In this document: positions 14,166 to 39,612 of the stretch, piece after piece
Position numbering within the stretch: the first letter of the stretch is position 1
Layout: every line of letters starts with the position of its first letter
Assembly (NCBI RefSeq): GCF_000223905.1
Contig: NC_015944.1
Span: 124,001 to 188,000 of the forward strand
Length of the DNA: 64,000 bases
From: Haloarcula hispanica ATCC 33960
Lineage (GTDB): Archaea > Halobacteriota > Halobacteria > Halobacteriales > Haloarculaceae
Direction of reading: 5' to 3'
Made by a program: the position numbers and the translations under genes
The notes under the pieces: model-generated
Database searches by the model: none
The model's input: only the letters and a program-made list of their open reading frames with translations
Told to the model about the DNA's origin: nothing

Positions 14166-14170
14166 GGTTG

Positions 14171-14222
14171 TTAGGCCCACCTAAAAATATATAACTGCTT
14201 CGGAATTTAGGCGCGCCTGAAA
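14171..14222 (-). promoter_or_regulatory. Iron-responsive promoter with two DtxR-type boxes
   Basis: Box 1 (14171-14184) is TTAGG-CCCA-CCTAA and lies between the TATA box and the start codon. Box 2 (14206-14222) is a near-perfect TTTAGGC-GC-GCCTGAA dyad at the upstream side of the TATA element (about 14188-14194). A repressor on both sites would block TBP/TFB and polymerase. The operon it controls encodes iron-type binding lipoproteins, which agrees. Confidence 0.65.
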
Positions 14223-15357: not shown

Positions 15358-16845
15358 ATGTCAGGACACAACTCACCGAAGACGGTTGGATCACTCCCGG
15401 ACACGACGGCTGACTCGCCGCTCGTACCCGTCGCACTCACATGGCTCGTGTGGTCGATGTTTGCCGCGAGCATTGCTGTGCTTGCCGTTCGGGTCCGAAC
15501 CGGAGTCGCGTGGGAGATACCCGGCGTTGTTGCTGTCGATGGGCTGACCGTCCTGATGTGGGTGGTCGCCACCTTCTTCAGCGGTATCGTTCACAGCTAC
15601 TCGCGCCGCTACCTGGCAGGCAGCCGCCTTAAAACGGGCTTTTTCGCCACCGTATTCGGTTTCACGGTGGTCGTGATGGGACTGGTCGCGGCTGACCACC
15701 TTGCCCTGTTCGGGGCGCTGTGGCTCGCGATGGGGCTGCTGATGGCGAAACTCATCGGAATCGTCGGCGGCTGGGACCAGGCACAGGCGGCTGCGACGGT
15801 CGCCCGCAAGTACTTCATCGCCAGCAGCGCGCTTCTCGCCGTCGCGCTAACGGCGCTGTGGTGGACGACCGATGCGACCACAGTCACCGGAGTTACGGCG
15901 GCTGCCGACGCACTCGGTGGCCCGGTGTGGCTGGTCGCCGCCGGCGCGCTCGTGCTCGCAGCGATGATTCAGTCCGCTCTGCTCCCGTTCCACGGCTGGC
16001 TTCTCTCTTCGATGACCGCACCGACGCCCGCCTCGGCGCTGATGCACGCTGGATTCGTCAACGCCGGCGGCATCCTGTTGACCCGCTTCGCCCCAGTCAT
16101 CACTGTCGACCCTGCGCTCATGCTCGCAATCGTCGCCGTCGGCGGTGCAAGCGCCATCGGCGGGAAACTCCTGAAGTCGGTCCAGACTGACATCAAGGGC
16201 AAACTCGGCTGTTCGACGGTCGGCCAGATGGGATTCATGATCATGCAGGCCGGCCTCGGCTTCTTCGGGGCTGCTATTACCCACCTCATCCTCCACGGCT
16301 TCTACAAGGCCTACCAGTTCCTCAGTGCCGGCGGCCAAATTGAACACACTAGCCCGAGCGAGGGGACGCCACACACGGTAGGAACGACGACGAGCATTAT
16401 CGGTGTCATCGTCACACTGCTGACCGGCATCGCCGGCGGCGCAGTGTTCGCGGTGCTGACGGGGAAAGGGACGAAGGTCGGCAGCGGCCTCCTGCTGACG
16501 TTCTTTGTGGTGTTCACGACGCTCCACGCGGCCCGTAGCGCCGTACAGCATACCTCGCTTCCAACGGCGGCCCGCTACGGGGCCGTCCCAGTGGTCTTCT
16601 TCCCGGCTATCGTCATCTACGCCGCGGTCTATACGGGCGTCTCGGGGCTCATGCCTGTCAGCCCGGCAACGACGGAACTGACCCTGCTCCACGGCATTAT
16701 CGCCGTCGTCTTCGTCGGCATCTACACCGGCATCGAGACCGGGGTTCACGAGCGCAGCCAGCGCCTCTACGTGGCGCTGCTGAACGCCGGTCAACCGGCA
16801 GCTGACACTGTGCTCACTGCTACGGAGGACTACAATGAGTACTGA
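15358..16845 (+). CDS. dabB: DabB-type membrane subunit of inorganic-carbon accumulation complex
   Basis: The 495-residue protein belongs to the NADH-quinone oxidoreductase NuoL/NuoM proton-channel family, with about twelve to fourteen membrane helices. It is far from any complex I operon and is followed by dabA. Family features include HGWLLSSMTAPTPASALMHAG (helix 7-8 region), the conserved Lys in GGKLLKSVQTDIKGKLGCST and LHGFYKAYQFL. In the DAB complex this subunit is proposed to couple ion flow to the CO2-hydrating DabA. The ATG at 15358 is the only in-frame start. Its end overlaps dabA by 11 bp. Confidence 0.9.
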   Translation: MSGHNSPKTVGSLPDTTADSPLVPVALTWLVWSMFAASIAVLAVRVRTGVAWEIPGVVAVDGLTVLMWVVATFFSGIVHSYSRRYLAGSRLKTGFFATVFGFTVVVMGLVAADHLALFGALWLAMGLLMAKLIGIVGGWDQAQAAATVARKYFIASSALLAVALTALWWTTDATTVTGVTAAADALGGPVWLVAAGALVLAAMIQSALLPFHGWLLSSMTAPTPASALMHAGFVNAGGILLTRFAPVITVDPALMLAIVAVGGASAIGGKLLKSVQTDIKGKLGCSTVGQMGFMIMQAGLGFFGAAITHLILHGFYKAYQFLSAGGQIEHTSPSEGTPHTVGTTTSIIGVIVTLLTGIAGGAVFAVLTGKGTKVGSGLLLTFFVVFTTLHAARSAVQHTSLPTAARYGAVPVVFFPAIVIYAAVYTGVSGLMPVSPATTELTLLHGIIAVVFVGIYTGIETGVHERSQRLYVALLNAGQPAADTVLTATEDYNEY

Positions 16846-19240
16846 ATCCACCATCCACGACAGTATCGACACCGCAGCGACCACCGTCGGCTCCCTCTGG
16901 CCCATCCACTCGTTCGTGACAGCAAACCCCCTCACGGGGTTCGAGGACCAGCCGTTCAGTGAGGCAGTCACGCAGGCAGCCGACCTGTTGGGCGGCCGTG
17001 GCTACCCCAGCGCGGAGACGTTCCGTGCGGCGCTACAACACGGCCAGATAGACCCGGAGATTCTCGACGCGGAACTCTCCGAGGCCGGCTACGAGAACGA
17101 CCCCGAGGTACTGCTCGACCGGATGGCCACAGCGACCGATGCCTCGAAAAGCGATTCCGACACCGCCACCGACCGCGTCGACCAGGTGCTGACGAAGTGG
17201 CTGTCGACGTTCCTCGACGAGGGGAGCGCCCACTGGTCGATGCCGAACCGCGAAGCGGGATTCTACACAGCTTTCCGCGGAGTGGCTGAGCACGACAGCG
17301 AAATCCCCGACGAGGGAATTATTACTGATCTGCCCGAAACGCCGACTGCGGCCATCGAAGCGGTGCTCGCACCGTACCCGGTGAGTCAGTGGGTGCCGGT
17401 TTTCGAGGAGCAACTGACCGCCCTCCCGGGCTGGACAGGACTCATCAAGCAGCGTGCCGACGACGGGGGCGTGTGGCAGTCGGCGTACCCGATTTCACTG
17501 GCGGGGTACCTCGCGGCGCGTCTGGCCCTGCTAGATGCCGTCGGTGCTGATATCGCCCCCTCGAACGACAGCATCGACCCGGACCCGGCCGCCGAACTCG
17601 CCGGGGCGTTCCTGCGCGCCTGGGAGGCGACCTACCGCGGCGACCTCGTCGAGACCGTCGCCGCGGAGAGCCAGTCGCTCGCCGACAGTGACAAATCGGG
17701 CTGCCCGGACGCACAGATGGTCTTCTGTATCGACACGCGCTCGGAGATCATCCGCCGTCACATCGAGGCCGCGGGCGACTACGAGACCCATGGGTACGCC
17801 GGTTTCTTCGGGATCCCGATGGAGTACCAGGGATACGACACCGACGTGTCTGTCAATGCCTGTCCACCGATTCTCGACCCGCAGCACCACGTCACCGACG
17901 TGCCGACCGACGACGACACCCAGGCGAGCCACGACCGCTTGTCGGGCATCCGTGAGACCGCCGACGAAATCATCGAAACGGTAGAGGCCAACGCCGCCAC
18001 AGCTTACGGCTACGTCGAGACTGCCGGGAGCGGGTACGGCCTCGCGCTCGCAGCCCGCACCCTCGTCCCCGGGCGCGTGCATGACCTGTTCGATGCGGTC
18101 GACGACTCGGTACCCGATGAACACGAGTTCTGTGACCCGCTCGTCCACCACCAGCACACCTACGCCGGTGACCTGCCGGTGGGACTGACCACCGACGAGA
18201 AAGTCGAGTACGCCGCCACCGCGTTCGACCTGATGGGCTGGGAGACGTTCAGCCGCCTCGTCGTCTTCACCGGGCATGCCAGTGAGACGACCAACAATCC
18301 CTACGATTCGAGTCTGGACTGTGGGGCCTGCGCCGGAAATCCCGGCGGCCCGAACGCCCGCGTGCTGGCGAAAATCTGCAACGACGACGAGGTCAGGGCC
18401 GCGCTCCGCGACCGCGGTTTCGAAATCCCCGAAGACACCGTCTTCCTCGCTGGCGAACACAACACGACGACTGACGAGGTGGAACTGTACGACAGCGACG
18501 TACCCGAGAGCCACGCTGCCGATCTCGACCAGTTGCGCGCCGACCTCGCCACTGCCCGCGAGAACGCGGCCGCCGAGCGTGCCGAGTCCATGGGTGCCGA
18601 CACCTCATCAGGGGTCACCGAGACGGAGCGCCGCGCCGCCGACTGGGCCGAGACCCGCCCCGAGTGGGGCCTGGCCGGCAACGCCGGCTTCGTCGTCGGC
18701 CCCCGCGAACTGACGAGTGATGTCGACCTCGGCGGCCGCGCGTTCCTCCACTCCTACGACTGGTCGACTGACGCTGACGGCGAGGCGCTGGAAGCGATAC
18801 TCACCGGCCCGATGGTCGTCACGCAGTGGATCAACACCCAGTACTACTTCTCGACGGTCGACAACGCCGTCTACGGGAGCGGCTCGAAGGTGACCCACAA
18901 CCCCGTCGGCAACGTCGGCGTCTACCAGGGCAACGGCGGCGACCTGATGACCGGCCTGCCGCTCCAGTCGCTGATGGCGGCCGACGACGACCCGTACCAC
19001 CAGCCGCTCCGCCTCTCGACGGTCATCCACGCTCCGGTCGACCGCGTCAACGGCGTCCTCGCTGAACACCCGGAACTGGCAGACCTACTCGACAACAACT
19101 GGCTCTCGTTGACAGTCGTCGATCCCACGCAGGACCACCGTGCCTTCGAGTACGAGCGTGACCTAGAGTGGTCGCCGGTGTCTGACCTGTCAGAAGCTGA
19201 AGCGACGGAACCGTTCGCACCCGCGGCCGCAAACGACTAA
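16835..19240 (+). CDS. dabA: DabA (DUF2309) zinc protein of inorganic-carbon accumulation complex
   Basis: The 801-residue cytoplasmic-side protein of the DAB complex is thought to hydrate CO2 vectorially to bicarbonate through a beta-carbonic-anhydrase-like site. The expected residues are all present: C298 and D300 in VFCIDTRSE, H481 in TGHASETTNNPY and C496 in SLDCGACAGN. The H-to-C spacing of 15 matches the studied bacterial protein. The 11-bp overlap with dabB argues for a translated pair. A T-run just after the stop (about 19273-19277) may end the transcript. In a presumed heterotroph the role would be anaplerotic bicarbonate supply. Confidence 0.93.
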   Translation: MSTESTIHDSIDTAATTVGSLWPIHSFVTANPLTGFEDQPFSEAVTQAADLLGGRGYPSAETFRAALQHGQIDPEILDAELSEAGYENDPEVLLDRMATATDASKSDSDTATDRVDQVLTKWLSTFLDEGSAHWSMPNREAGFYTAFRGVAEHDSEIPDEGIITDLPETPTAAIEAVLAPYPVSQWVPVFEEQLTALPGWTGLIKQRADDGGVWQSAYPISLAGYLAARLALLDAVGADIAPSNDSIDPDPAAELAGAFLRAWEATYRGDLVETVAAESQSLADSDKSGCPDAQMVFCIDTRSEIIRRHIEAAGDYETHGYAGFFGIPMEYQGYDTDVSVNACPPILDPQHHVTDVPTDDDTQASHDRLSGIRETADEIIETVEANAATAYGYVETAGSGYGLALAARTLVPGRVHDLFDAVDDSVPDEHEFCDPLVHHQHTYAGDLPVGLTTDEKVEYAATAFDLMGWETFSRLVVFTGHASETTNNPYDSSLDCGACAGNPGGPNARVLAKICNDDEVRAALRDRGFEIPEDTVFLAGEHNTTTDEVELYDSDVPESHAADLDQLRADLATARENAAAERAESMGADTSSGVTETERRAADWAETRPEWGLAGNAGFVVGPRELTSDVDLGGRAFLHSYDWSTDADGEALEAILTGPMVVTQWINTQYYFSTVDNAVYGSGSKVTHNPVGNVGVYQGNGGDLMTGLPLQSLMAADDDPYHQPLRLSTVIHAPVDRVNGVLAEHPELADLLDNNWLSLTVVDPTQDHRAFEYERDLEWSPVSDLSEAEATEPFAPAAAND

Positions 19241-20963: not shown

Positions 20964-21995
20964 TTACGAATCAAGTGATATCATGCCCTTGACCACAGTC
21001 GGCTCCATCGCTCGGCGGAACGCGTCGTCGATATCTTCGAGTTCGGATTCGAAGTCGATGATTCCCTCAACGTCGACTTCGCCGTCGGCCAACAGGTCGA
21101 CAGCCGCGTCATAGGTGTTCTTGTACCGGAACGAGCCGTGGACGTCGACCTCGTTGTCGATGAGTTCCAGCACGTCGATTGGGACCTCCGCTTCGCTGGC
21201 GAGTCCGACCAGAACGACCGTGCCGCCCCGACGGACCACGTCGATTGTCGACTTGATCGACGGCTCCGCGCCGGAGGCTTCGACGACCACATCAGCACCG
21301 ACGCCGTCCGTGTACTCGGCGACCGCCGCATCGAGATCCGTTTCGGTAACGTTGACGGTCAGGTCCGCTCCCCGTTCTTCGGCGAAGGTCAGCTTTTCGT
21401 CGACGACATCGGTCAGTATTACGTCCGTCGCGCCCGCGGCACGCGCGGCCTCCAGCACCATCAGCCCAATCGGCCCGGCGCCGGTTATCAGCACTGTATC
21501 CCCGGTTCCGACGCTGCCGCGGCGGCAGGCGTGGATGCCGACCGAAAGCGGCTCGCACAGTGCCCCTTCAGCAGTGGAAACGGCCTCCGGGAGCGTGTAG
21601 GCGAAGTCGGCCGGCCACGAGACGTACTCCGTGAACGCGCCGTCGTGTGGCGGCGTCGCCATGAACGTCACTTCCTCACAGAGGTGGTAGTCGCCGCGCT
21701 TGCAGTGGGCACAGCGCCGGCACGGAACACCGGGTTCGAGCGCGACCCGGTCGCCCGGTTCGTGGTGGGTAACGTTCTCGCCCACTTCGACGACTTCACC
21801 GGCGCTCTCGTGTCCGAGGACGAGCGGGTCTTCGACGACGTAGTCGCCGATACGACCGTGTTCGTAGTAGTGGACGTCGGAGCCACAGATCCCAACGTCG
21901 CGAACGGCAACGAGTACGTCGTCGGGCCCGGGCGACGGTCTGGGACGGTCCTCCAGTTCGAACTCATTTGGTTCTACCAGTACAGCAGTTCGCAT
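20964..21995 (-). CDS. Zinc-dependent MDR polyol/sugar dehydrogenase
   Basis: The 343-residue medium-chain dehydrogenase is of the sorbitol/xylitol-dehydrogenase type and oxidises a polyol to a ketose, or a sugar to a lactone, with NAD(P). It has the catalytic-zinc Cys in GICGSDVHYY, GHE-type HESAGEVVEVG, four structural-zinc cysteines in PCRRCAHCKRGDYHLC, and a Rossmann loop GAGPIGLMVLEAA. The start at 21995 fits the family. It lies 69 bp after the dehydratase gene on the same strand and is likely co-transcribed with it. Substrate not known. Confidence 0.88.
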   Translation of the reverse strand: MRTAVLVEPNEFELEDRPRPSPGPDDVLVAVRDVGICGSDVHYYEHGRIGDYVVEDPLVLGHESAGEVVEVGENVTHHEPGDRVALEPGVPCRRCAHCKRGDYHLCEEVTFMATPPHDGAFTEYVSWPADFAYTLPEAVSTAEGALCEPLSVGIHACRRGSVGTGDTVLITGAGPIGLMVLEAARAAGATDVILTDVVDEKLTFAEERGADLTVNVTETDLDAAVAEYTDGVGADVVVEASGAEPSIKSTIDVVRRGGTVVLVGLASEAEVPIDVLELIDNEVDVHGSFRYKNTYDAAVDLLADGEVDVEGIIDFESELEDIDDAFRRAMEPTVVKGMISLDS

Positions 21996-22064
21996 ACCTG
22001 TTGGCACGGAACAGAGCCATAAAAATACACAGGGTGGGCCGCCCCATTGGGTTGCCGTGTCCAG

Positions 22065-23216
22065 CTACCACTCCGCGACGCTCCCGTCCTCGTGGTGCCA
22101 TACCGGGTTGTACCAGTTGACCTCTGTCTGTGCCAGTTCGCGGATGAGAGTCTCGTCGAGATCGATACCAAGTCCGGGGCCGGTCGGCCGTTTGACGTAG
22201 CCGTCTTCGAACTGGAACGTCTTCGGGTCCTCCAGGACCTTGAGTCGCTGGCTCGTCGTCGGGTCGTGTAGATCGAGGTCCTGTTCGTGCAGCACGACGT
22301 TCTGGGCGCAGAACCCGACCTGCAGGCTCGCCGCGAACGCGACGGGGCCGAGCGGACAGTGTGGAACGACGGCTACGTCGAACGCTTCCGCCATCGACGC
22401 GACCTTGCGCATCTCGCTGATGCCACCGACGTGGGTCACGTCGGGCTGGAGTATCGACACCCCGTCGTCAACGAGGAGGCGCTTGAAGTCATAACGCGAA
22501 TAAAACCGTTCGCCAGTCGCTATCGGAACAGTCGTCCGCTCGGCGATACTGGCAAACGAGTCGTCGTGTTCGGGGAGCAGCGGCTGGTCGATGAACATCA
22601 GATCGAACTGTTCGAGTCGCTCGACGAGATCCGCGGCCATCGGTTTCGAGACGCGGCCGTGGAAGTCGACTCCGACGAGGGCGTCGTCACCGACGGCGTC
22701 ACGGATTGCAGCCACACGCTCAACCGCATGATCGACAGCGTTCGGCGTCTCAATCGGCCGAAACTCCCGGGCGAAATTGAACTTGAACGCTCTGTAGCCG
22801 CGTTCTCGGTCCTCTTTCGCGGCCGCGGCCACGTCTTGCGGATCATCGCCACCGAGCCACTGGTAGACGAGTAGCTTATCGCGGACGTGCCCGCCGAGTA
22901 GTTCGTGCACCGGTGCGCCGTAGTGCCGCCCCTTGATGTCCCAGAGCGCGTGGTCGATGCCCGCGAGCGCGCTCATGAGTATCGGCCCGCCGCGGAAGTA
23001 CCCGCTCTGATAGAGCTTCCGCCAGTGATACTCGGTTCGAAGTGGGTCGGCCCCAAGGAGATACGCCTCGATAAGCTCGGTAACAGCGGCACGGACTGTC
23101 TCCAACCGGCCCTGAACGATGGGCTCGCCCCAGCCGACGATCCCCTCGTCAGTCTCCAGTTTAAGAAGCAACCACCGCGGCGGCACGGCGAACAGTTCGA
23201 AGTCGGTGATTTGCAT
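22065..23216 (-). CDS. dgoD: D-galactonate dehydratase family protein
   Basis: The 383-residue enolase-superfamily enzyme dehydrates an aldonate to the 2-keto-3-deoxy acid. Similarity to bacterial DgoD runs end to end: FELFAVPPRWLLLKLETDEG, GYFRGGPILMSALAGIDHALWDIKG, VGVDFHGRVSKPMA (metal ligand D184), ATGERFYSRYDFK (third ligand Glu), APHCPLGP-type VPHCPLGP and the ending HEDGSVAEW. At the second metal-ligand position the sequence is FIDQP, so D210 replaces the usual Glu. The ATG at 23216 is the family start. Galactonate or a related deoxy-aldonate is the likely substrate. Confidence 0.9.
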   Translation of the reverse strand: MQITDFELFAVPPRWLLLKLETDEGIVGWGEPIVQGRLETVRAAVTELIEAYLLGADPLRTEYHWRKLYQSGYFRGGPILMSALAGIDHALWDIKGRHYGAPVHELLGGHVRDKLLVYQWLGGDDPQDVAAAAKEDRERGYRAFKFNFAREFRPIETPNAVDHAVERVAAIRDAVGDDALVGVDFHGRVSKPMAADLVERLEQFDLMFIDQPLLPEHDDSFASIAERTTVPIATGERFYSRYDFKRLLVDDGVSILQPDVTHVGGISEMRKVASMAEAFDVAVVPHCPLGPVAFAASLQVGFCAQNVVLHEQDLDLHDPTTSQRLKVLEDPKTFQFEDGYVKRPTGPGLGIDLDETLIRELAQTEVNWYNPVWHHEDGSVAEW

Positions 23217-23256
23217 AGCTATGTTATCTGCGAGGGAGTACTTGTAATGACTGGCT

Positions 23257-23268
23257 GCCGATATCGGC
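23257..23268. promoter_or_regulatory. 12-bp palindrome between dgoD-type and SDR genes
   Basis: GCCGATATCGGC is perfectly symmetric and sits in the 120-bp divergent region, 41 bp from the dehydratase start and 69 bp from the SDR start. It is a candidate shared operator. Confidence 0.35.
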
Positions 23269-23336
23269 CCGACAAAGACTGTAACAAAAATAGGCGTACA
23301 TTTATGCTGGAGGCTACCGGAGCACCAAGCGTACGC

Positions 23337-24110
23337 ATGAGTGTAGTTGACAGCTTCTCCCTCGACGGAGAGACAGCTATCGTCACCGGTGCGGCGCAGG
23401 GTCTCGGCAAACAGATGGCGACCGGGCTCACCGAGATGGGGGCCGACGTGGCTATCGCGGACGTGAACATCGAGAAAGCGGAACGGACGGCCGCAGAACT
23501 CGACGGTCAAACGGACGTCGTCGCGACGGAGGTCGACGTGACGGACGAAGCCTCGGTCGAGGCGATGGTCGAAGACGTGACCGACCGCCTCGGACCGATT
23601 GACGTACTGGTCAACAATGCCGGGATCGTCGAGAACTCCCCTGCGGAGGAGACGAGCATCGAGTCATGGCGGCGGGTCGTATCGGTCAACCTCGACGGTG
23701 TCTTTCTCTGTGCCAAACACGTCGGCCAGCAGATGCTCGAACGGGGCGAGGGCCGCATCGTCAACGTCTCCTCGATGTCAGGCTTCGACGTGAACGTCCC
23801 GCAGAAACAGGCCAGCTACAACACGACGAAAGCCGGCGTCAGGATGCTGACCCAGTCACTGGCGGTCGAGTGGGGCGAGCAGGGCGTCCGCGTCAACGCT
23901 ATTGCGCCCGGCTACATGCGGACCGAACTCGTCGACGAAGTGCTCGAAGAGAGCCCCGAGATGGAAGAAACGTGGCTCGAGAACACGCCGATGGGCCGAC
24001 TCGGTCGACCGGAGGAACTGAAAGAACTCGTCGTCTACCTCGCGTCGGACGCGTCGTCGTACATGACGGGGTCGACCGTCGTGATGGACGGCGGCTACAC
24101 CTCGCGGTGA
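23337..24110 (+). CDS. SDR-family polyol/sugar dehydrogenase
   Basis: The 257-residue short-chain dehydrogenase has the cofactor loop TGAAQGLGKQMA, an aspartate after strand 2 (ADVNIEKAE) that favours NAD, NNAGI, and the catalytic Ser-Tyr-Lys set in NVSSMSG and SYNTTKAG. The family end GSTVVMDGGYTSR is also present. I start at 23337. An ATG at 23304 in frame is less likely because the added residues are not family-like. It is divergent from the dehydratase and ends 4 bp from the convergent kinase stop. Ketose/polyol or sugar/lactone conversion is likely. Confidence 0.88.
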   Translation: MSVVDSFSLDGETAIVTGAAQGLGKQMATGLTEMGADVAIADVNIEKAERTAAELDGQTDVVATEVDVTDEASVEAMVEDVTDRLGPIDVLVNNAGIVENSPAEETSIESWRRVVSVNLDGVFLCAKHVGQQMLERGEGRIVNVSSMSGFDVNVPQKQASYNTTKAGVRMLTQSLAVEWGEQGVRVNAIAPGYMRTELVDEVLEESPEMEETWLENTPMGRLGRPEELKELVVYLASDASSYMTGSTVVMDGGYTSR

Positions 24111-24114
24111 GGTG

Positions 24115-25590
24115 TCAGGCCTCGGGCGACGAGGCGTCGGTCAGTGCGGCCAACCGGTCTTTTACGTCGGCCCACTCGCCAGCGGTACCCGGTTCGTATG
24201 TCGTCGTCTCGAACGCCGATTCGACCAACTGCCGCCCGGTTTCGATGTCAGAAACCGTTCCGGCGGCGACGGCCTGTGTGAGGACGTTGCCGACAGCCGT
24301 CGCCTCGACTGGGCCAGTCGACACTGGGCGGTTGGTGGCGTCGGCCAGTAGCTGACAGAACAGCTCGTTTCTAACACCGCCGCCACCGAGCACGATATGC
24401 GATGGCGGGTCGTCGACGACTGCCGCGAGCGCGTCGAGTTCCAGCGCCGTTTTCGCCGCCAGGCTGTCGAGGAGACAGCGGACGATGCTGCCCTGCCCCG
24501 TCGGGACGGGCTGGTCCGTTCGGCGGCAGTAGGCCCGGATCTGCTCGGGCATCGGCTCGTCGATGCCGAACGTCTCGGCATCCGTATCGACGAGTGCGGC
24601 CCGTGGCGGGGCCTCCTCGGCGGCCGACAACAGCGTCTCGTACTCCAGCGGTTCGCCCGCTTCGCGCCACGCTTTGCGGCATTCTTCGAGCATGAAGAAG
24701 CCGTTGATGTTCTTCAGGAGCCGGACGGACCCGTCGACGCCGAGTTCGTTCGAGACGGCCTGTTCGAAGGCGGCGTCCGTCCGCACCGGGTCGTCGCGCT
24801 CGACGCCGAGGACGAACCACGACCCGGTGTTGAGGAACGCGGCGTCCTCGAAGAGCGGGAGGCCGGCGACGGCCGCCGCCGTGTCGTGGCTCGCCGGCGT
24901 CACTATTTCCGGCGGCGAAGACAACCCCGAGACGACGTCGTCATCGACCGCCCCGAGACATTGTCCGGGTTCAGACAGCGGCGGGAGCAGGTCAGTCGGC
25001 ACCGACAGCTCTTCGAGCAGGTCGGTGGCCCACGTTCGTTCCTCGGGATCGACCATCTGCGTGGTCGAGGCAATCGTCACCTCGCCCGCCGGCACCCCTC
25101 CAATCCGTGCGGACAGGAGCTGTGGCATCATGAGCAGGCCGTCGGTTTCTTCGAGGCGTTCGGGCTCCCGCTCAGCGATGGTGTGGAGCTGCCACAGTGT
25201 GTTCGGCGTGTTCCAGTTCGTAATGCCGGTCGCGTCGAACAGCCGCCGCTTGCCGACGGCCTCGAACACTTGCTCGCGTGTGGCCGTCGACTCGGGGTCG
25301 CGGTAGGAGACCGGGTCCCGGAGCAGTTCGCCGTCGGCCAGGAGTCCGAAGTCGAGCCCCCAGGTGTCGATACCGACCGTGTCGAGGCCGTCGGCGCGGT
25401 CGTCGGCCGCACTGAGCCCGTCGCCGATGTGGTCGACCAGCGCGTCGACGTCCCAGACGTAGCGGCCGTCCCGTTCGACGGGTCGGTTGTCGAACCGGTG
25501 GACCTCCTGTACCGCGAACGAGGACTCGGTCACCTCGCCGAGGAACACCGTCCCGCCGCTCGCTCCGATGTCGATTGCGACGTGGTTCAT
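24115..25590 (-). CDS. rhaB: Rhamnulokinase-type FGGY kinase
   Basis: The 491-residue FGGY carbohydrate kinase phosphorylates a ketose at C1. It follows bacterial RhaB closely: AIDIGASGGTVFLGEV at the start, DTWGLDFGLLADGELLRDPVSYRD, NTPNTLWQL, LLMMPQLLSARIGG, ASHDTAAAVAGLPL and LGGGGVRNELFCQLLADA near the end. Together with the adjacent aldolase it forms a kinase-aldolase pair, as for L-rhamnulose or L-fuculose. No rhamnose or fucose isomerase is in the window, so the ketose could come from polyol oxidation. Substrate is inferred. Confidence 0.85.
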   Translation of the reverse strand: MNHVAIDIGASGGTVFLGEVTESSFAVQEVHRFDNRPVERDGRYVWDVDALVDHIGDGLSAADDRADGLDTVGIDTWGLDFGLLADGELLRDPVSYRDPESTATREQVFEAVGKRRLFDATGITNWNTPNTLWQLHTIAEREPERLEETDGLLMMPQLLSARIGGVPAGEVTIASTTQMVDPEERTWATDLLEELSVPTDLLPPLSEPGQCLGAVDDDVVSGLSSPPEIVTPASHDTAAAVAGLPLFEDAAFLNTGSWFVLGVERDDPVRTDAAFEQAVSNELGVDGSVRLLKNINGFFMLEECRKAWREAGEPLEYETLLSAAEEAPPRAALVDTDAETFGIDEPMPEQIRAYCRRTDQPVPTGQGSIVRCLLDSLAAKTALELDALAAVVDDPPSHIVLGGGGVRNELFCQLLADATNRPVSTGPVEATAVGNVLTQAVAAGTVSDIETGRQLVESAFETTTYEPGTAGEWADVKDRLAALTDASSPEA

Positions 25591-25622
25591 GGGATGCTCT
25601 CAGGTGTGGTTCGCACGAGTGG

Positions 25623-26276
25623 TCACTGTCCGTAGCTGTCGAGCTTATCGGCCAGCCGGTCGATCTCCTCGTCCGGGAGGATCTCCGGCTCGCCGATGGC
25701 CCGGGCCTGATGGTGGATGCGGGCGCAGTACTCGACCATCAACGCGACCGTGTAGGCGTCGTCCAGCGACTCGTCGGCGGTCAGCACGCCGTGGTTGCGC
25801 AACAGCGTGGCGTTGAACGACTCGCCCAGCGCGTCGACGGCCGCTTCGCCGAGTTCTTCGGTCGCGTGCGTCCGGTATTCGGCGACGGGGACCTCCGTCC
25901 CGGTAAACGAGAGGAGGTAGTGGGAGGCGGGAATCGCCTCCCCGAGCGAGGCAAACGTCGTCGCGTACGGCGAGTGGGTGTGGACGACGCCACCGACCGC
26001 GGGCCGCTCGCGGTAGACCGCCAGATGCATCGGTAGCTCCGTCGACGGCTCGACGTCGCCCTCAACGACAGTGCCATCCATCCGTACAACAGGAACGTCT
26101 TCCGGTTCGATCTCCTCGTAGGGGATTCCCGACGGGCTGATCGCGATGTGGTTCTCGTCGAGTCGGGCACTCAGGTTTCCACCGGTCCCGGTTGTCAGAT
26201 CGTCTTCGAGCAGGCTCCGGCCGTACTCGCAGATAGCGGTTCGCGTCTCGTAGTGTGCAATGTCTTGATCTGTCAT
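25623..26276 (-). CDS. fucA: Class II aldolase, L-fuculose-phosphate type
   Basis: The 217-residue zinc aldolase would split a ketose 1-phosphate to DHAP and an aldehyde such as L-lactaldehyde. It matches FucA: GTGGNLSARL, ISPSGIPYEEIEPEDV, the catalytic Glu in PSTELPMHLAVY, the zinc His pair in VVHTHSPYAT and the third His in LLRNHGVLT. It begins 32 bp upstream of the kinase gene and 55 bp downstream of the transporter ATPase gene on the same strand, so a single transcript is likely. RhaD/AraD activities are alternatives. Confidence 0.88.
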   Translation of the reverse strand: MTDQDIAHYETRTAICEYGRSLLEDDLTTGTGGNLSARLDENHIAISPSGIPYEEIEPEDVPVVRMDGTVVEGDVEPSTELPMHLAVYRERPAVGGVVHTHSPYATTFASLGEAIPASHYLLSFTGTEVPVAEYRTHATEELGEAAVDALGESFNATLLRNHGVLTADESLDDAYTVALMVEYCARIHHQARAIGEPEILPDEEIDRLADKLDSYGQ

Positions 26277-26330: not shown

Positions 26331-27491
26331 TCACTCGGCGGGCTTCATCTGCTCTTCGAGTGCCATCTCGGCGTCATCACCGAGCTGGCGCTGGTGGATC
26401 GTCTCGCCGCTGGCGGGGTCGAACAGGTGGACGTCCCGGTCCGGAATCTCGACGTAGACGTGTTGGCCCTCGCTGATGGGGCGCTGTCCGTCCGTCTCGA
26501 CGATGAACGTCTGCTCGTGGCTCTGTGACCGGGCCTGGAGATAGACGTAGGAGATGCTCCCCATCGGTTCGACGACGTCGACGACGGCCTCGAACTCGTG
26601 GCCCGAGTTCGCCCGGTCGTGAAGCGTCATATCCTCCGGCCGAATACCGAGGACGAGTTCGTTTCGACTCCCAACAGCGGACTGCATCCGCTCGGTCAGG
26701 TCGAAGTCGAAGCCGTCCGCGCGGAGGGTTCCGCCCTCGACGGTGCCCTCGAAGAAGTTCATCGACGGCGAGCCGAGGAAGCCGGCCACGAACTGGTTGG
26801 CCGGGCGGTAGAAACACTCCAGCGGCGTGCCGACCTGCTGGAGTTCCCCGTAGTTGAGGACGACGAGCCGGTCGCCCATCGTCATCGCCTCCGTCTGGTC
26901 GTGGGTGACGTACAGCGTCGTCACGTCGAGGTCGTTCTGGAGCCGGTTGATCTCGGTGCGCATCTCCGCCCGGAGCTTCGCGTCCAGGTTCGACAGCGGC
27001 TCGTCCATCAGGAAGACGTTCGGGTCACGGACGATAGCGCGGCCGAGCGCGACACGCTGTTGTTGTCCCCCGGAGAGTTCGCCGGGCTTGTCGTCCAACA
27101 GCATGTCGATGTCCATCATCTCGGCGGCGGACGTGACGGCTTCCTCGATCTCGTCGGCGGACATGTCCGTCGACATCTTCAGCCCGAAGGACATGTTCTC
27201 CTCGACGGTCATGTTGGGGTACAGCGCGTAGTTCTGGAATACCATCGCAATATCCCGGGCGCGCGGGCCGAGTTGATTGACCACCTTATCGCCGATTCTG
27301 ATATCGCCCTCGGATTGCGTTTCCAGCCCTGCGACGATGCGCATGAGCGTCGACTTCCCGCTCCCGGACGGACCGACGAAGACGATAAACTCGCCATCGC
27401 GGATGTCCAGCGAGACGTCGTCGACCGCGACGATTGACTCATCTCCTTCACCGAATCGCTTCGTAACGTCGTCGATTGTGATCTTTGCCAT
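26331..27491 (-). CDS. Sugar ABC importer ATPase, MalK/UgpC type
   Basis: The 386-residue protein has a full nucleotide-binding domain: GPSGSGKST Walker A at about residues 39-47, a Q-loop in VFQNYALYPNMTV, the signature LSGGQQQRVALGRA, the Walker B VFLMDEPLSNLDAKLR and YVTHDQTEAMTMGDR. A C-terminal TOBE domain (about 240-386) typical of CUT1 sugar importers follows. It serves the two permeases and binding protein upstream on the same strand. It lies between transport and catabolic genes in one apparent operon. Confidence 0.93.
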   Translation of the reverse strand: MAKITIDDVTKRFGEGDESIVAVDDVSLDIRDGEFIVFVGPSGSGKSTLMRIVAGLETQSEGDIRIGDKVVNQLGPRARDIAMVFQNYALYPNMTVEENMSFGLKMSTDMSADEIEEAVTSAAEMMDIDMLLDDKPGELSGGQQQRVALGRAIVRDPNVFLMDEPLSNLDAKLRAEMRTEINRLQNDLDVTTLYVTHDQTEAMTMGDRLVVLNYGELQQVGTPLECFYRPANQFVAGFLGSPSMNFFEGTVEGGTLRADGFDFDLTERMQSAVGSRNELVLGIRPEDMTLHDRANSGHEFEAVVDVVEPMGSISYVYLQARSQSHEQTFIVETDGQRPISEGQHVYVEIPDRDVHLFDPASGETIHQRQLGDDAEMALEEQMKPAE

Positions 27492-27582
27492 TATCTTGCC
27501 TCCGATGTGCGGCTAAGTGAAGCTACCGCCGCCGCAGGGGCGTCGTTTGCGAGCGATACCTGTCGTGGTGTGGACAGCGTCG

Positions 27583-28461
27583 TCATTCTTTGATCACCAC
27601 GCCGAAGCTGAGCCCGGCCGCGAGGTACTTGTTGACCGCGATGAGGAAGATGACGACCGGAACGATCATCGCTGTCGAGGCGGCCGCGAGCATCCCCCAT
27701 TCGATCGAGCGCGAGCCGATGAACGAGTAGACGAACAGCGTCACCGGTACGGCCTCGAAGCTCGTCAGCACGAGCCCGAACAGCAGCTCGATCCACGCGA
27801 AGATGAAGCTGATGATGGCGACCGAGAAAATGCCGGGCTTGGCCGCCGGGAGGACGACCTTCCTGAAGCCCTGGAACTGGGTCGCGCCATCGACACGGGC
27901 CGCCTCTTCCAGCGTCTCGGGGATGCCGTCGAAGAACGCTTTCATCACCCAGACGACGAGCGAGAGGTTGATGCTGACGTACATCAGCACCATCCCGACC
28001 CGCGTGTCGAACAGATTGAGCTCCCGGAAGATGATGAAGAAGGGGAGCACGACGGCAATCGGCGGAAGCATTCGTGAGGAAAGTATCCACACGAGCACGT
28101 CCCGCTCCATGGGGATATCGTACCGCGAGAGCACATACGCGGCGGGGACGCCGATCAACAGCACGAGGACGACCGACGCCGACACCATGACGAGGCTGTT
28201 GGCGAACGCCGCGACGAACCCGGAATCCTGGATCAACTGGATGTAGTTGTACACCGTCGGCAGGAAGATCCAGTCCGGGGGCAGCGAATTCGCTGTTCCG
28301 GGCGGCTTCAGCGACATCGAAGCGAGCCAGTACAGCGGGAACAGCACGATGAACGACCACGTCAGGAGAATGGTGTGTCGAACCACCGTGACGATGGTCT
28401 CACGCGTATCCTTGTCGAGTCGCTGTGACGCGGTCGCGGAGTCGCTATCCGTTGTCGCCAT
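27583..28461 (-). CDS. Sugar ABC importer permease, MalG type
   Basis: The 292-residue protein has six membrane segments and the EAA loop EEAARVDGATQFQGFRKVVLPAAKPG (near residue 190), which docks to the ATPase. The C-terminal region FGLVLTSFEAVPVTLFVYSFIGS is typical of MalG-like subunits. The ATG at 28461 shares one base with the stop of the partner permease, so I prefer it to the start 9 bp upstream. A long open frame overlapping it in another phase is a shadow. Confidence 0.92.
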   Translation of the reverse strand: MATTDSDSATASQRLDKDTRETIVTVVRHTILLTWSFIVLFPLYWLASMSLKPPGTANSLPPDWIFLPTVYNYIQLIQDSGFVAAFANSLVMVSASVVLVLLIGVPAAYVLSRYDIPMERDVLVWILSSRMLPPIAVVLPFFIIFRELNLFDTRVGMVLMYVSINLSLVVWVMKAFFDGIPETLEEAARVDGATQFQGFRKVVLPAAKPGIFSVAIISFIFAWIELLFGLVLTSFEAVPVTLFVYSFIGSRSIEWGMLAAASTAMIVPVVIFLIAVNKYLAAGLSFGVVIKE

Positions 28462-29393
28462 CAGTCCCACACCCCCTCGAAGCCGACCTTCGCAATGATG
28501 ACGTTACACAGTGCAACGACGAGGACGAGGTAAACGACGGCGATCGCTGCGGCCACGGTGATCTGGTTGTTGATGAACATCTGTTCGTAGATGTTGATGC
28601 TCACGAGCTGGGTCGCCGTCCCGGGGCCGCCGCCCGTGAGCCCGTACACCACGCCGAACGTTCGGAACAGGTCGATTAACCGGATGAGTGTCGCGACGAA
28701 CACGACTGGCTTCATGTAGGGGATGATGACGTGGACGTAGCGACGCCACATCGGCGCACCGTCGACGCGCGACGCTTCGATGAGCGTCTTCGGCACCGAC
28801 GAGAGGCCGGCGTAGAAGATGATGAACATGAACGGCGTCCAGTTCCACGCGTCTAAGAGAATAACCGTCAGCAGCGGGATTTCCGAGAGGAAATTCGGCG
28901 CTGCGAACGGCGTGCCGGTGTTTATGACGTACGGAATAATTCCGATTTCGCTGTTCAGCATGATCCGGCCGATGGTCGCGAGCGAGACGGGGGCGACGGC
29001 CATCGGAATGATGAACAACACCCGGTAGAACGACTTCGCCCGGCCGGAGCCGACGCCGGCGACGAGCGCGGCCAGGACGAACCCGAGGATAGTTTCGAGG
29101 AGCAGCGCGCTGACGACGACAGTAATCGTAATGACGAACGAGTGGATCGCGCCGCCGCGGGTAAACGCCGTCTCGAAGTTGCGCAGCCCCACGAAATCAG
29201 CTGCGAATACATCGAGTGTCGGCTCCGCGATCAGGCTGAGATACAGGTCGTAGGCACCGGGGAAGAAGGTGATCATCACCATCACCGCCACCATCGGTGC
29301 CATGAACCAGTACGGGAGGTAGTCGTTCCACAGGTCCCGCAGCCTGGCGAAGGTCGATTGAGGTGTCGTTTCCGTTTGCGTTGGTGTACTCAT
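28461..29393 (-). CDS. Sugar ABC importer permease, MalF type
   Basis: The 310-residue protein has six membrane segments and an EAA loop IEASRVDGAPMWRRYVHVIIPYMKP. The N-terminus with FFPGAYDLYLSL and the middle VGLRNFE are characteristic of MalF/UgpA-like subunits. It forms the heterodimeric channel with the gene that follows it and overlaps at one base. It begins 36 bp after the binding-protein gene. Confidence 0.92.
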   Translation of the reverse strand: MSTPTQTETTPQSTFARLRDLWNDYLPYWFMAPMVAVMVMITFFPGAYDLYLSLIAEPTLDVFAADFVGLRNFETAFTRGGAIHSFVITITVVVSALLLETILGFVLAALVAGVGSGRAKSFYRVLFIIPMAVAPVSLATIGRIMLNSEIGIIPYVINTGTPFAAPNFLSEIPLLTVILLDAWNWTPFMFIIFYAGLSSVPKTLIEASRVDGAPMWRRYVHVIIPYMKPVVFVATLIRLIDLFRTFGVVYGLTGGGPGTATQLVSINIYEQMFINNQITVAAAIAVVYLVLVVALCNVIIAKVGFEGVWD

Positions 29394-29429
29394 TTGTGGG
29401 ATGTGTTGTGGCGCAGGTGTGGCTGAGAC

Positions 29430-30863
29430 TTAATTGCTGTAGATGTCTTCTGCGATGGATGCCGCCTGTGTCATCGCCTCCTCAGCGGACTTCTGCCCGG
29501 CGATGGCGCGCTGCAGTTCCTCCGAGTACCGCTGGCCCCATTCGGGGTACTTCCGGTCGAACGGGTCCGGCGCTGCTTCCTGCAGGGATTCGAGGGTGAC
29601 CTGTGCGAAGTTCTCGCCGACGCGAGAGCGGAACTCGTCGTTCTCCCAGACGGACTGGCGGACGGAGAAGGCGGCGTCGCCCTTGACGTGCATCCAGGTG
29701 TTGGTCGGCTGCGAGGACGCCCACACCATGAACAGGAACGCCTGCTCGGAGTTCTGGGCGTTTTTGGACGTGGAGATCTGCCAGTTGAACGCGTTGGGCG
29801 AGAACTGGCCATCAGCCGGACTGGGAACCTTCGCGATACCAATCGTGTCGGCGACCGAGGAGTCAGAGCCGGTGAGTCCGGGCCAGAACAGGTTCGCGTC
29901 GGAGACGATGTGGCCGGCGCGCCCTTCCTGCATCGTCGAGAGCACGTCCGACCAGGTCTGCGTGGACGCGCCTTCGGGACCGTAGTCCTGCAGCAGGCTG
30001 ACGTACCACTCCGCGGCGTTGATGACGCCGTCGGAGTCGAGGCCGGAATCGGTCGGGAACTCGGTCCAGAGCGAGGAGCCGAACTCGCGCAGGAACGTGT
30101 TGAGGATGTAGATGTTCATCCCGTAGCCCTTGTCGCCACGGCCGACGGTGCCGACGACGTCCGACTCGTTCTCGTGGATGGTCTGTGCGTTCTGACGGAA
30201 CTCTTCGAGCGTCTCCGCGACCTCTAGGTCGTGCTTGTCGTAGAGGTCTTTGCGGTAGAACTGCGTTTGGACTTCGACGGTAATCGGCATCCCGGTCCAT
30301 GTGTCGCTGTAGCCGCCACCGTGAGCCTGCCACCGCGACGCTTCGAAGAGGTCGTCTGGATCGTACCAGTCCTCGTCGAAGAGGCTCTCATCATCGAAGA
30401 ACGGGTCGAGCGGCTGGATCCAGCCTTCCTCGCGGAACTGGTTGACGACCTGATCCATGTAGAAAACGTCGAACTGCCCAGCGCCGGTACTGACGTCCGT
30501 CTGGCGCTTGGTCCGGAACTGCTGTTCGGGCAGGACGTTCCAGACGACGTCGATCCCGGTCAGTTCCTCGAAGACCGGGACCGCGGGTTTGATGGCCGAA
30601 ACCCAGGGGTGCTGGACGGCCCCGATGTTGATCGAGGACCCCTCGAACTGTCGCCAGTCGATATCGGCGTCCTCGTACTCGCTGAGTGGAATCGCGAGCT
30701 CGCCATCGCTTCCGTCGGTGCTGGTTCCGCCATCACTACCCCCACTTGAGCCGTCACTTCCGCTCCCATCTGAGCCATCGCCGCCTCGTGTACAGCCAGC
30801 GAGACCGCTGAGTAGTCCGACACCTGTCGCTTTCAGAAACGTCCGCCTGTTGGAGTTGGTCAT
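29430..30863 (-). CDS. Sugar ABC importer substrate-binding lipoprotein
   Basis: The 477-residue protein starts with a Tat signal (NRRTFLKATGVGLLSGLAGC, lipobox Cys about 23), then a Gly/Ser/Asp-rich linker and a large family-1 extracellular solute-binding domain. The gene is first of the operon that continues through permeases, ATPase, aldolase and kinase. I choose the ATG at 30863, since the Tat motif sits properly behind it. A TATA-like TTTATT on the minus strand (30901-30906) and two TACCGA repeats precede it. Oligosaccharide or glycoside binding is likely. Confidence 0.92.
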   Translation of the reverse strand: MTNSNRRTFLKATGVGLLSGLAGCTRGGDGSDGSGSDGSSGGSDGGTSTDGSDGELAIPLSEYEDADIDWRQFEGSSINIGAVQHPWVSAIKPAVPVFEELTGIDVVWNVLPEQQFRTKRQTDVSTGAGQFDVFYMDQVVNQFREEGWIQPLDPFFDDESLFDEDWYDPDDLFEASRWQAHGGGYSDTWTGMPITVEVQTQFYRKDLYDKHDLEVAETLEEFRQNAQTIHENESDVVGTVGRGDKGYGMNIYILNTFLREFGSSLWTEFPTDSGLDSDGVINAAEWYVSLLQDYGPEGASTQTWSDVLSTMQEGRAGHIVSDANLFWPGLTGSDSSVADTIGIAKVPSPADGQFSPNAFNWQISTSKNAQNSEQAFLFMVWASSQPTNTWMHVKGDAAFSVRQSVWENDEFRSRVGENFAQVTLESLQEAAPDPFDRKYPEWGQRYSEELQRAIAGQKSAEEAMTQAASIAEDIYSN

Positions 30864-31209
30864 GCCAGTTTGCCTCGTCACTACCGAATTACCGATGCAT
30901 AATAAAGGTAATCATCTGTAAGGTAGAATACCCATCCCACTGGGGGAGATCCGACGGTTTGCAGTACTAGGACGCCTCTATCTACGAATTCCTCTGTCGC
31001 CCGATTACGGGAGACCGTGGCAAGATTTTAATACACGGTCCGAAAACATCGATAGTACGGATCGTGGCTGAGTCCGCTGTGTGCGTCCAGCTCGGCTGGA
31101 CCAGTGACAACGGGCTACGGCCCAGACCACCCATGACCCGACCCACACCAACTCACGACCGAGGTACTGCTGTAGTGACGACCGCGACCCGACCGTCGGA
31201 GGACGACTG
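30864..31209. promoter_or_regulatory. Divergent promoter region of sugar importer and MDR gene
   Basis: There is no gene. On the importer side TACCGA occurs at 30882-30887 and 30890-30895, between the TATA-like TTTATT (30901-30906) and the start codon. On the other side TTTTAATA (about 31025-31032) would give a leader near 150 nt for the MDR gene. That leader contains two hairpins, GTCCAG-CTCGG-CTGGAC (31085-31101) and GGGC-TACG-GCCC (31112-31123). A clear Shine-Dalgarno GGAGG (31199-31203) precedes the ATG at 31210. Confidence 0.45.
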
Positions 31210-32244
31210 ATGCGCGCCAGCACGTTGACCGATGTCGGCGAAATTACCGTCGAAGAGCGTGACCGACCGGACCCTGCGGATGACGAGGTTCTCGTTCAGG
31301 TCGGCGCCTGTAGCGTCTGCATGACCGACTATCATATGTACCACGGCACCTTCGCCGCAGAGACACCGCTGGTCCTGGGCCACGAAGGTGCCGGGACCGT
31401 TGCGGAAGTCGGTGCCGACGTTGAGGGCTTCGCGGTCGGAGACCGCGTCGCAATCAACCCCACCGTCCCCTGTAACGCCTGCTCGTACTGCAAGAAGGGG
31501 GAGACGCACCTCTGTGAGAACAACACGAGCATCGGCGGTGCCGGTGACACCATCCTCGACGGTGCCTTCGCTGAATACGTCCGCGTCCCGGCGATCAACG
31601 TCGAGGACATCGGCGAGATGTCATTCGAACGGGCCGCACTCGCCGAACCGCTCGCCTGCTGTGTCCACGGCGTCGAGCAGACAGACATCAAACCCGGAGA
31701 CAGCGTCGGTATTATCGGCGCTGGCCCGATTGGCTTGCTGCTCCTGCAGGCGTTCCGCAACGCGGGCGCTGCCCCAATCGTGGTTTCCGAACTTGATGAC
31801 GAACGACGAGAGCTGGCTGCCGACCTCGGCGCAGATGCCGTCGTCGACCCCAACGAAGAAGATCCCGAGGAGGCGATCTGTGCGGCGGCCGGCGGACCGG
31901 TCGACGTCGGCGCCGAGGCTATTGGGCTCGTCCCGACAATCAAGCAGGCCAACGCTGTGACTGCGTCCGGTGGCTCGACACTCATCTTCGGCGTCCCTGA
32001 CCAAGAAGCGACAATGGAAATCAGCCCGTTCGATGTCTTCTTCGACGAGGTCGACTACCGCGGCTCGTTCTCCCTGACGACCGAGGACTTCGAGCGAGCG
32101 ATAACACTGCTCAGACACGAACGCATCGATGCCGAGACGCTCATCACCGAACGTATCGGGCTCGACGATCTCCCGACAGCGTTTGAACGGATGGGCAACG
32201 CTGAGGGGCTGAAGAAAGTAGTCGTTCCAGGGGATTCCGAGTGA
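31210..32244 (+). CDS. Zinc-dependent MDR alcohol/sugar dehydrogenase
   Basis: The 344-residue protein has the catalytic zinc site Cys in CSVCMTDYH and GHEGAG, four structural-zinc cysteines in PCNACSYCKKGETHLC, and a Rossmann loop GAGPIGLLLLQAF. It resembles sorbitol/threonine-dehydrogenase-like members but is clearly different from the MDR gene at 20964. It is preceded by a good Shine-Dalgarno site. Its last codons overlap the GTG of a decayed aldolase gene, showing the two once formed a pair. Substrate is unknown; a polyol or lactaldehyde-type alcohol is possible. Confidence 0.88.
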   Translation: MRASTLTDVGEITVEERDRPDPADDEVLVQVGACSVCMTDYHMYHGTFAAETPLVLGHEGAGTVAEVGADVEGFAVGDRVAINPTVPCNACSYCKKGETHLCENNTSIGGAGDTILDGAFAEYVRVPAINVEDIGEMSFERAALAEPLACCVHGVEQTDIKPGDSVGIIGAGPIGLLLLQAFRNAGAAPIVVSELDDERRELAADLGADAVVDPNEEDPEEAICAAAGGPVDVGAEAIGLVPTIKQANAVTASGGSTLIFGVPDQEATMEISPFDVFFDEVDYRGSFSLTTEDFERAITLLRHERIDAETLITERIGLDDLPTAFERMGNAEGLKKVVVPGDSE

Positions 32245-32542: not shown

Positions 32543-33310
32543 ATGACCGACGAACCACAGTATGCAGTCGAAGCAACCCAGACATCGGTGGCTATCCTCG
32601 AAGCGCTTGTCGACGCGACGGGGCCTGTCGGCGTTACAGAGCTTGCCAATCTCGTCGGGGTTTCCAAGAGCGTCGCCCATAACCACCTCTCGACGTTGCG
32701 TGCGGCCGGATACGTGGTCAAGCGCGCAGAGAAGTACGAGGCGTCGCTCCGCCCGTTGTTTCTCGGTGAGCGAACGCGTGATGGACTCAGTTTCTATCAG
32801 GCGGCGAAACAACAACTGGACAATCTCGCGACGGCAACAGGGGAGACAGCGACACTGTTCGTCCTCGAAGAAACGGCCGGTGTCCCGGTGTCGATCTCCG
32901 AACCCGAGGACGGCTGGGGAGTCCCGTTCCACGCGGGCGAACGGTTGCCACTCCATGTCAACGCTCCGGGAAAGGCACTGCTGTCGTCGCTCCCGAGTGA
33001 TCGCGTCGAATCGGTTCTCGATGAAAGAGAGCTTGTCGCACCGACTGACGCAACTCTCGTCGACCCAGATGAACTCATCGAGGAACTGCGCCGGGTTCGT
33101 GATGACGGCATTGCGTTCTGTAGAGGAGAACAGTACGAGGGGATTATCGGTGTTGCCGCCCCGCTACCTGACGTCAGTGGTGATCGGATCGCTGCACTGG
33201 GCATCTGTGGCCCCGTTGAGCGTTTGAACGGCCGATACCTCAGGGAGGATATCACCGGGCAGGTCCTCAGCACGACAAAATCCATTCAGGTGGCCCTTAC
33301 ATCGAATTGA
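32543..33310 (+). CDS. IclR-family transcriptional regulator
   Basis: The 255-residue protein has an N-terminal winged helix-turn-helix (VGVTELANLVGVSKSVAHNHLSTLRAAGYV, about residues 30-62) and the IclR effector domain with ERLPLHVNAPGKALLSSLP and GIAFCRGEQYEGIIGVAAPL. Such regulators control sugar and aromatic catabolism in haloarchaea. Its place among the transporter, kinase, dehydrogenase and lactate genes makes it the best candidate regulator of this region. A TATA-like CTTTTG lies about 30 bp before the ATG. Confidence 0.9.
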   Translation: MTDEPQYAVEATQTSVAILEALVDATGPVGVTELANLVGVSKSVAHNHLSTLRAAGYVVKRAEKYEASLRPLFLGERTRDGLSFYQAAKQQLDNLATATGETATLFVLEETAGVPVSISEPEDGWGVPFHAGERLPLHVNAPGKALLSSLPSDRVESVLDERELVAPTDATLVDPDELIEELRRVRDDGIAFCRGEQYEGIIGVAAPLPDVSGDRIAALGICGPVERLNGRYLREDITGQVLSTTKSIQVALTSN

Positions 33311-35303: not shown

Positions 35304-35825
35304 ATGAAAAGCAAACGCGCGTCGTTCGAGGACGCTCTCGAAGCATTGGGTGTGACAGTTTCAAGCACTGCCGAGTCCGACCTCGAAGCCGCTGTTACGG
35401 AGGCAGTCACGGAGCCTGCAGTCGGGATCGCGCTCGACAAAACGGCCGGGGACGAGGCGTTTTCTCTCACGGGGACGCCGGTCACGGTCGACCCCACTCC
35501 GGTCGCGCTTCGCGAAGCGACCACCGGCGTAACCGGTGCTGAACTCGGCATCGGCGACTACGGTTCGCTCGTCCTCTCGATGACCGAAGAGGCCAGCGAA
35601 CTCCTGAGCCTGTTTGTCGAGCGTCACGTCGCCATTCTTCACGAGGAAGACATCCAGCCCGATATGGACGCGGCAGTGGCAGAACTGGACGAACGGTTCA
35701 ACGAAACCGGTGGGAGCGCGATCATCGCAACAGGACCGAGCGCGACAGCCGATATGGGCGCGCTCGTCAAAGGCGCACACGGACCCAAGGAAGTCCACGT
35801 CATCATCGTCGAGGAGGGTGCGTGA
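35304..35825 (+). CDS. LutC-type LUD-domain protein
   Basis: The 173-residue LUD-domain protein fits the small subunit of the LutABC L-lactate oxidation system, which converts lactate to pyruvate. Typical motifs are ALREATTGVTGAELGIGDYGSLVL in the centre and GPSATADMGALVKGAHGPKEVHVIIVEE at the end. It overlaps or abuts the next gene (stop at 35823-35825). In this locus it could handle L-lactate made from lactaldehyde after deoxy-sugar cleavage. Confidence 0.88.
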   Translation: MKSKRASFEDALEALGVTVSSTAESDLEAAVTEAVTEPAVGIALDKTAGDEAFSLTGTPVTVDPTPVALREATTGVTGAELGIGDYGSLVLSMTEEASELLSLFVERHVAILHEEDIQPDMDAAVAELDERFNETGGSAIIATGPSATADMGALVKGAHGPKEVHVIIVEEGA

Positions 35826-35827
35826 CG

Positions 35828-39531: not shown

Positions 39532-39612
39532 ACGTGACGTATCAGCGCGTCCGGTCATAAACGTGACCCAAAGGCTCGATGAACCAGCTCTCGGGCACGG
39601 CAAACGCAGTCG

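Follow-up and report, generated by a model that had tools for sequence, protein, structure and literature searches.

A probable isomerase-free dehydrogenase–kinase–aldolase branch accessory to the msc polyol cluster of Haloarcula hispanica

We analyzed a 64-kb window of the Haloarcula hispanica ATCC 33960 genome (contig NC_015944.1, positions 124,001 to 188,000; all coordinates are those of the whole window, and strands are given relative to its forward strand). The window contains the msc mannitol/sorbitol cluster and, within it, genes for a short-chain dehydrogenase/reductase (SDR), a RhaB-like ketose kinase, and a FucA-like class II aldolase. We consider it probable that these three genes form an accessory, isomerase-free branch of the cluster that serves a further polyol. 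In the proposed branch, the MscEFGK importer would take up a polyol besides mannitol and sorbitol, and the SDR would oxidize it to a ketose. The kinase would then phosphorylate the ketose at C1, and the aldolase would split the ketose-1-phosphate into dihydroxyacetone phosphate (DHAP) and a hydroxyaldehyde. An isomerase would be unnecessary because the SDR makes the ketose from the polyol. We infer these reactions and substrates from the gene content, the absence of an isomerase, the co-inheritance of the genes, the conserved catalytic residues, and the changed aldehyde-pocket residues.

The msc cluster of H. hispanica comprises mscS (HAH_5138), mscK-G-F-E (HAH_5143–5146), mscM (HAH_5147), and mscR (HAH_5148; Ortjohann & Schönheit 2024, PMC11519228). 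The window shows the same order: mscS, four genes, mscK-G-F-E, mscM, and mscR. As the gene order is the same and exactly four HAH numbers fall between mscS and mscK, we identify the locus as the msc cluster, with the same importer, two medium-chain dehydrogenases/reductases (MDRs), and IclR regulator. The paper assigns mscSKGFEMR only, and HAH_5139–5142 are not discussed in the passages covered. We numbered these four genes, and mscS, by position. That the cluster is a published one had been missed by an earlier prediction made from the sequence alone (the original prediction).

The aldolase gene (HAH_5142; 25623..26276, −) begins 54 bp past mscK. The kinase gene (HAH_5141; 24115..25590, −) follows 32 bp past the aldolase gene, approximately 0.7 kb downstream of mscK and on the same strand. 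An alignment of msc clusters showed that the mscK–aldolase–kinase order is kept across most genera. The original prediction had placed a RhaB-type kinase and a FucA-type aldolase in the importer operon; its coordinates are correct, and both genes lie directly behind the CUT1 importer (mscK-G-F-E; 26331..30881, −). The SDR gene (HAH_5140; 23337..24110, +) completes the trio.

Relatives of MscE were found in 29 of 293 Halobacteriales genomes, two of which are without the remaining cluster, so that 27 msc clusters were compared. Both the kinase and the aldolase are present in 18 of these and both are absent from the other nine; neither occurs singly. This co-occurrence gives a Fisher p of 2e-7 or, with one entry per genus and state (7 versus 7), 6e-4; no phylogeny correction was applied, and the counts are not phylogenetically independent, with the absences spread over several families. 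Every one of the 18 clusters that carry the pair also has the SDR. The SDR occurs without an intact kinase and aldolase in two clusters only (genomes G280 and G138), and in both of these C-terminal kinase remnants adjoin the SDR gene. In G280, an aldolase-like remnant of 16 residues additionally adjoins mscK. One cluster among the 18 (G156) has a broken kinase reading frame. The kinase of G268 was assigned to a neighboring RhaI module, and the msc cluster of this genome was scored as lacking it. Where the trio is missing, the clusters retain the importer, an MscM-like MDR and, in most cases, the DgoD-like enzyme and the regulator; several also keep an MscS gene. On the basis of this presence/absence pattern over the 27 clusters, we regard the SDR, kinase, and aldolase as a detachable unit and count the DgoD-like dehydratase among the msc core genes. 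Outside msc clusters, relatives of the kinase and aldolase also occur as pairs (L047, L049, and L050).

No match to RhaA (PF06134) or FucI (PF02952) was found in the H. hispanica genome, and a search of it with a haloarchaeal RhaI as the query was likewise empty. The original prediction that no rhamnose or fucose isomerase is present thus extends to the whole genome. RhaA and FucI are both missing from 25 genomes with a RhaB-like kinase (this one and 24 others), and the positive controls worked. Matches to PF01261 in H. hispanica were considered as isomerase candidates; they were judged to be endonuclease IV and generic TIM-barrel proteins and rejected. A diketo-hydrolase of the haloarchaeal rhamnose pathway was not recognized in the msc cluster; the genome was not searched for it.

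Of the 293 genomes, one (G268) has a RhaI-type isomerase, which adjoins a kinase 51% identical to that of H. hispanica. At this locus (L048, 5618-10830), the RhaI-like isomerase (TIGR02635, 350.9 bits, below the cut-off of 531) stands together with the RhaB-like kinase, a class II aldolase, an aldehyde dehydrogenase, and an ABC importer. The module has the appearance of a phosphorylative rhamnose pathway of the bacterial type. The msc cluster of G268 lies next door and is without the SDR–kinase–aldolase trio.

HAH_5142 matches FucA-type aldolases with E values down to 4e-58 and is the only class II aldolase (PF00596) in the genome. Its best match in the Protein Data Bank (PDB) is DrdA (6btd), and the substrates of its nearest aldolases are L-fuculose- or 5-deoxyribulose-1-phosphate. 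It is 36% identical to Escherichia coli FucA. The pocket residues of both the aldolase and the kinase were read from alignments. The catalytic Glu73 of FucA, the zinc ligands His92, His94, and His155, and Tyr113 and Tyr209 are all conserved. The hydrophobic wall of FucA is not kept, H131 and L206 standing in place of F131 and F206, the two residues proposed, from FucA mutagenesis, to accommodate lactaldehyde's methyl group. A T72/H131/A132/L-I206 signature (F131H/G132A/F206L-I) is found in 22 of the 23 distinct msc-linked aldolases; none of the compared non-msc relatives has it. Nearly all non-msc haloarchaeal relatives retain G132 and F206. As a separate observation, a reading frame of genome G199 (L050, 12050-13387) holds two FucA-like aldolase domains and lies next to a RhaB-like kinase gene and a DgoD-like gene.

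Sato et al. (2022, PMC9700705) set the true haloarchaeal ribulose-1-phosphate aldolase apart from an unassigned FucA* group with members in Haloarcula, which they suggested might point to nucleoside or pentose pathways. HAH_5142 belongs to the same superfamily as the true enzyme and is likewise haloarchaeal, but it scores 214.3 bits against NF053831 (cut-off 300), and no ribose-1,5-bisphosphate isomerase above the cut-off is found in the genome (best TIGR00511 score 160 versus 314). Both differences fit the FucA* group, to which HAH_5142 probably belongs. Our evidence would place this FucA*-type aldolase in polyol catabolism.

HAH_5141 finds L-fuculose kinase (4c23, E 6.6e-79), the nearest characterized enzyme, and RhaB (2cgj, E 2.3e-71) in the PDB. 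It scores 371.8 bits against the rhamnulokinase model TIGR02627, below the curated cut-off of 527.95, and is 34% identical to E. coli RhaB and 24% to FucK. In the alignment, all RhaB substrate residues that could be placed are conserved (T81, W82, G83, D85, H236, D237, T238, and N296; residue roles as in UniProt). The closest named relatives, with 88-90% identity, are from Haloarcula japonica, amylolytica, sebkhae, and mannanilytica. The genome encodes two FGGY proteins, HAH_5141 and a protein of 519 residues. We presume the latter to be the glycerol kinase, given its length and because haloarchaea generally possess such an enzyme. Another set of RhaB-like kinases, 40-45% identical, is without the TWG substrate motif and occurs at L047, L049, L051, L052, L053, and L055, often near enolase-superfamily and SDR genes.

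The combination resembles the RhaABD and FucIKA pathways in its RhaB-like kinase and its FucA-like aldolase with conserved catalytic residues. It differs from them in that H. hispanica has no isomerase, a dehydrogenase stands in its place, and the aldolase wall residues are altered. The DrdKIA pathway of 5-deoxyribose salvage (PMC6079011) is alike through DrdA, the best PDB match of the aldolase, but DrdK is methylthioribose-kinase-like and the pathway needs the isomerase DrdI, whereas the H. hispanica kinase is an FGGY protein.

The original prediction had counted three adjacent polyol-type dehydrogenases as possible partners of the kinase. For the SDR this stands, as it tracks the kinase–aldolase pair; the two MDRs are MscS and MscM and form fructose. 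MscS (20964..22007, −) is an MDR/PDH sorbitol dehydrogenase of the msc core that matches ketose reductase 1e3j (E 3e-94) and sorbitol dehydrogenases, and MscM (31210..32244, +) is the mannitol dehydrogenase. Both are NAD-dependent, each deletion abolishes growth on the enzyme's own polyol, and knockout and kinetic data give fructose as the product of both (PMC11519228). The fructose is phosphorylated by a ketohexokinase encoded elsewhere, and deletion of khk nearly abolishes growth on mannitol and sorbitol. As published, fructose is handled by khk/fruK/fbaB1 elsewhere. We therefore conclude that the MDRs are not dedicated or primary feeders of the RhaB-like kinase. Three dehydrogenases acting as one system were rejected as feeders of the kinase, because genes such as mscS and mscM also persist in clusters without the kinase and aldolase.

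The best PDB match of the SDR is galactitol dehydrogenase (2wdz), followed by polyol dehydrogenase (3awd), and the protein carries the S...Y...K motif. FucA-type aldolases cleave (3R,4R)-ketose 1-phosphates. This stereochemistry leaves L-tagatose, D-ribulose, or L-fuculose, and the altered wall favors the first two. The leading candidates for the ketose are thus L-tagatose, formed from galactitol, and D-ribulose, formed from D-arabitol or ribitol; a 6-deoxy ketose is less likely. One specific version, which we put forward only tentatively, starts from galactitol: the SDR would form L-tagatose, the kinase L-tagatose 1-phosphate, and a FucA* retuned for a hydroxymethyl group would release DHAP and L-glyceraldehyde. 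The MscEFGK importer takes both hexitols, mannitol and sorbitol (PMC11519228), and we count this promiscuity in support of a further polyol. The earlier idea that the ketose comes from oxidation of a polyol or deoxy-polyol survives in its first half, given the missing isomerase, the plausible SDR, and the polyol importer; the deoxy-polyol is weakened by the aldolase wall.

Several points weigh against the proposed branch. The SDR scores approximately 200 bits to many SDRs, so that its substrate is not readable from sequence, and it could act on the aldehyde product instead. The msc cluster contains no dedicated aldehyde dehydrogenase. Both the role of F131 and F206 and the (3R,4R) rule, the latter established for the family, enter the argument from general knowledge of FucA. 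Halomicroarcula rubra, whose cluster (L065) carries the trio, reportedly uses none of the polyols tested as sole carbon source, among them dulcitol, xylitol, mannitol, and sorbitol; as it is also mannitol- and sorbitol-negative, this says little.

If the SDR reduced or oxidized the aldehyde released by the aldolase, the ketose would be imported directly, or would come from an unrecognized isomerase or a side activity of MscS. The msc cluster holds no other aldehyde-processing gene, and in the G268 neighborhood an aldehyde dehydrogenase stands beside the kinase. We nevertheless regard this arrangement as unlikely, since the SDR is retained in G280 and G138 without an intact kinase or aldolase and its best matches are polyol dehydrogenases.

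The original prediction had also considered 6-deoxy substrates, in which case the trio would use L-fucitol, L-rhamnitol, or imported L-fuculose or L-rhamnulose and yield DHAP and L-lactaldehyde. The nearest characterized kinase and aldolases point in this direction, as do the G268 kinase adjoining the RhaI-like isomerase and the GH88-family hydrolase, LarA-like, and Lut-like genes 2-10 kb away in the window. However, the replacement of the proposed methyl-holding F131 and F206 by H and L/I in the msc-linked aldolases, set against the retention of G132 and F206 in nearly all non-msc relatives, disfavors a 6-deoxy substrate. The msc cluster is a hexitol system, and deoxy-polyols are rare substrates. 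On balance we find this route quite improbable.

The position of the kinase and aldolase inside a mannitol/sorbitol cluster, downstream of the importer, could suggest a second fructose route through fructose-1-phosphate to DHAP and D-glyceraldehyde, like that of human ketohexokinase and aldolase B. We consider it very unlikely: FucA-type aldolases mismatch the (3S,4R) stereochemistry of fructose, the khk deletion leaves almost no growth on either sugar alcohol, and many msc clusters are without the pair. Least credible is that HAH_5142 serves as the ribulose-1-phosphate aldolase of a nucleoside-derived pentose bisphosphate route, for which the NF053831 match and the broad aldehyde range accepted by Hx-FucA can be cited, but against which stand the sub-threshold score, the missing ribose-1,5-bisphosphate isomerase, the separation of Haloarcula FucA* from the true enzyme, and the linkage to a polyol importer and an FGGY kinase, not to nucleoside genes.

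Should the galactitol route prove true, it would be an isomerase-free kinase–aldolase pathway for a polyol, and the orphan FucA* of Haloarcula would be accounted for. The sequence polyol, ketose, ketose-1-phosphate, and aldolase cleavage is not new in biology as a concept. Its isomerase-free use in a haloarchaeal polyol cluster appears to be undescribed in the searchable literature, and within the literature searched we found no paper combining galactitol, L-tagatose, kinase, and aldolase. For members of the four-gene gap in the published cluster, and likewise for the orphan FucA* aldolases, the analysis indicates a probable function. It also suggests how a kinase–aldolase module that is detachable can extend a polyol importer. 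The polyol operon of Pseudomonas fluorescens (mtlEFGKDYZ) is alike in that one polyol importer serves several dehydrogenase and kinase branches; its branch relies on a xylulokinase and a fructokinase and includes no aldolase reaction. MscE is 42% identical to the substrate-binding protein of that operon (PMC11519228). H. hispanica is genetically tractable through the uracil-auxotrophic strain DF60 and pop-in/pop-out deletion.

The fourth gene of the gap (HAH_5139; 22065..23216, −) encodes a DgoD-like D-galactonate dehydratase of the enolase superfamily, which the original prediction overlooked inside its own interval. It scores 602.6 bits against the galactonate dehydratase model NF010624 (cut-off 311), and 191 of 382 residues (50%) are identical to E. 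coli DgoD. Catalytic and metal positions are retained, with one E to D change. In its distribution the DgoD-like enzyme goes with the msc core, and no observation here links it to the kinase–aldolase trio; its role is perhaps galactonate use. The gene lies 57 bp upstream of mscS on the same strand, forming a pair, and diverges from the SDR gene across 120 bp (23217..23336). In the alignment, an ATTTA block on the SDR side and an ACTTG block on the dgoD side of this promoter region are kept across genera. No convincing common operator for the two divergent promoters of the msc locus was seen in the alignment, only conserved TATA-like blocks. The cluster's activator, the IclR-family protein MscR, is encoded at 32543..33310 (+; PMC11519228).

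Beside mscM, a gene that by inspection resembles archaeal class I fructose-bisphosphate aldolase recurs in some genomes (L044, 12341-13180; relatives in L037, L039, L069, and L082). If the resemblance holds, it would tie fructose cleavage to the msc cluster.

Elsewhere in the window, three tandem paralogous lipoprotein-like genes of approximately 400 residues each lie at 10532-14180; the one checked gave no NCBIfam match. They are followed at 15358-19240 by a NuoL-like membrane protein and an 801-residue protein without an NCBIfam match, possibly a pair like the DabB/DabA inorganic-carbon transporter. Near the msc cluster, the region 35304-42068 could be a lactate/glycerate or a rhamnogalacturonan module: Lut-like genes occupy 35304-38008, and the region also encodes a LarA-like nickel-pincer isomerase, which scores 457 bits against NF052515, as well as a glycerate 2-kinase-like protein and the GH88-family hydrolase.

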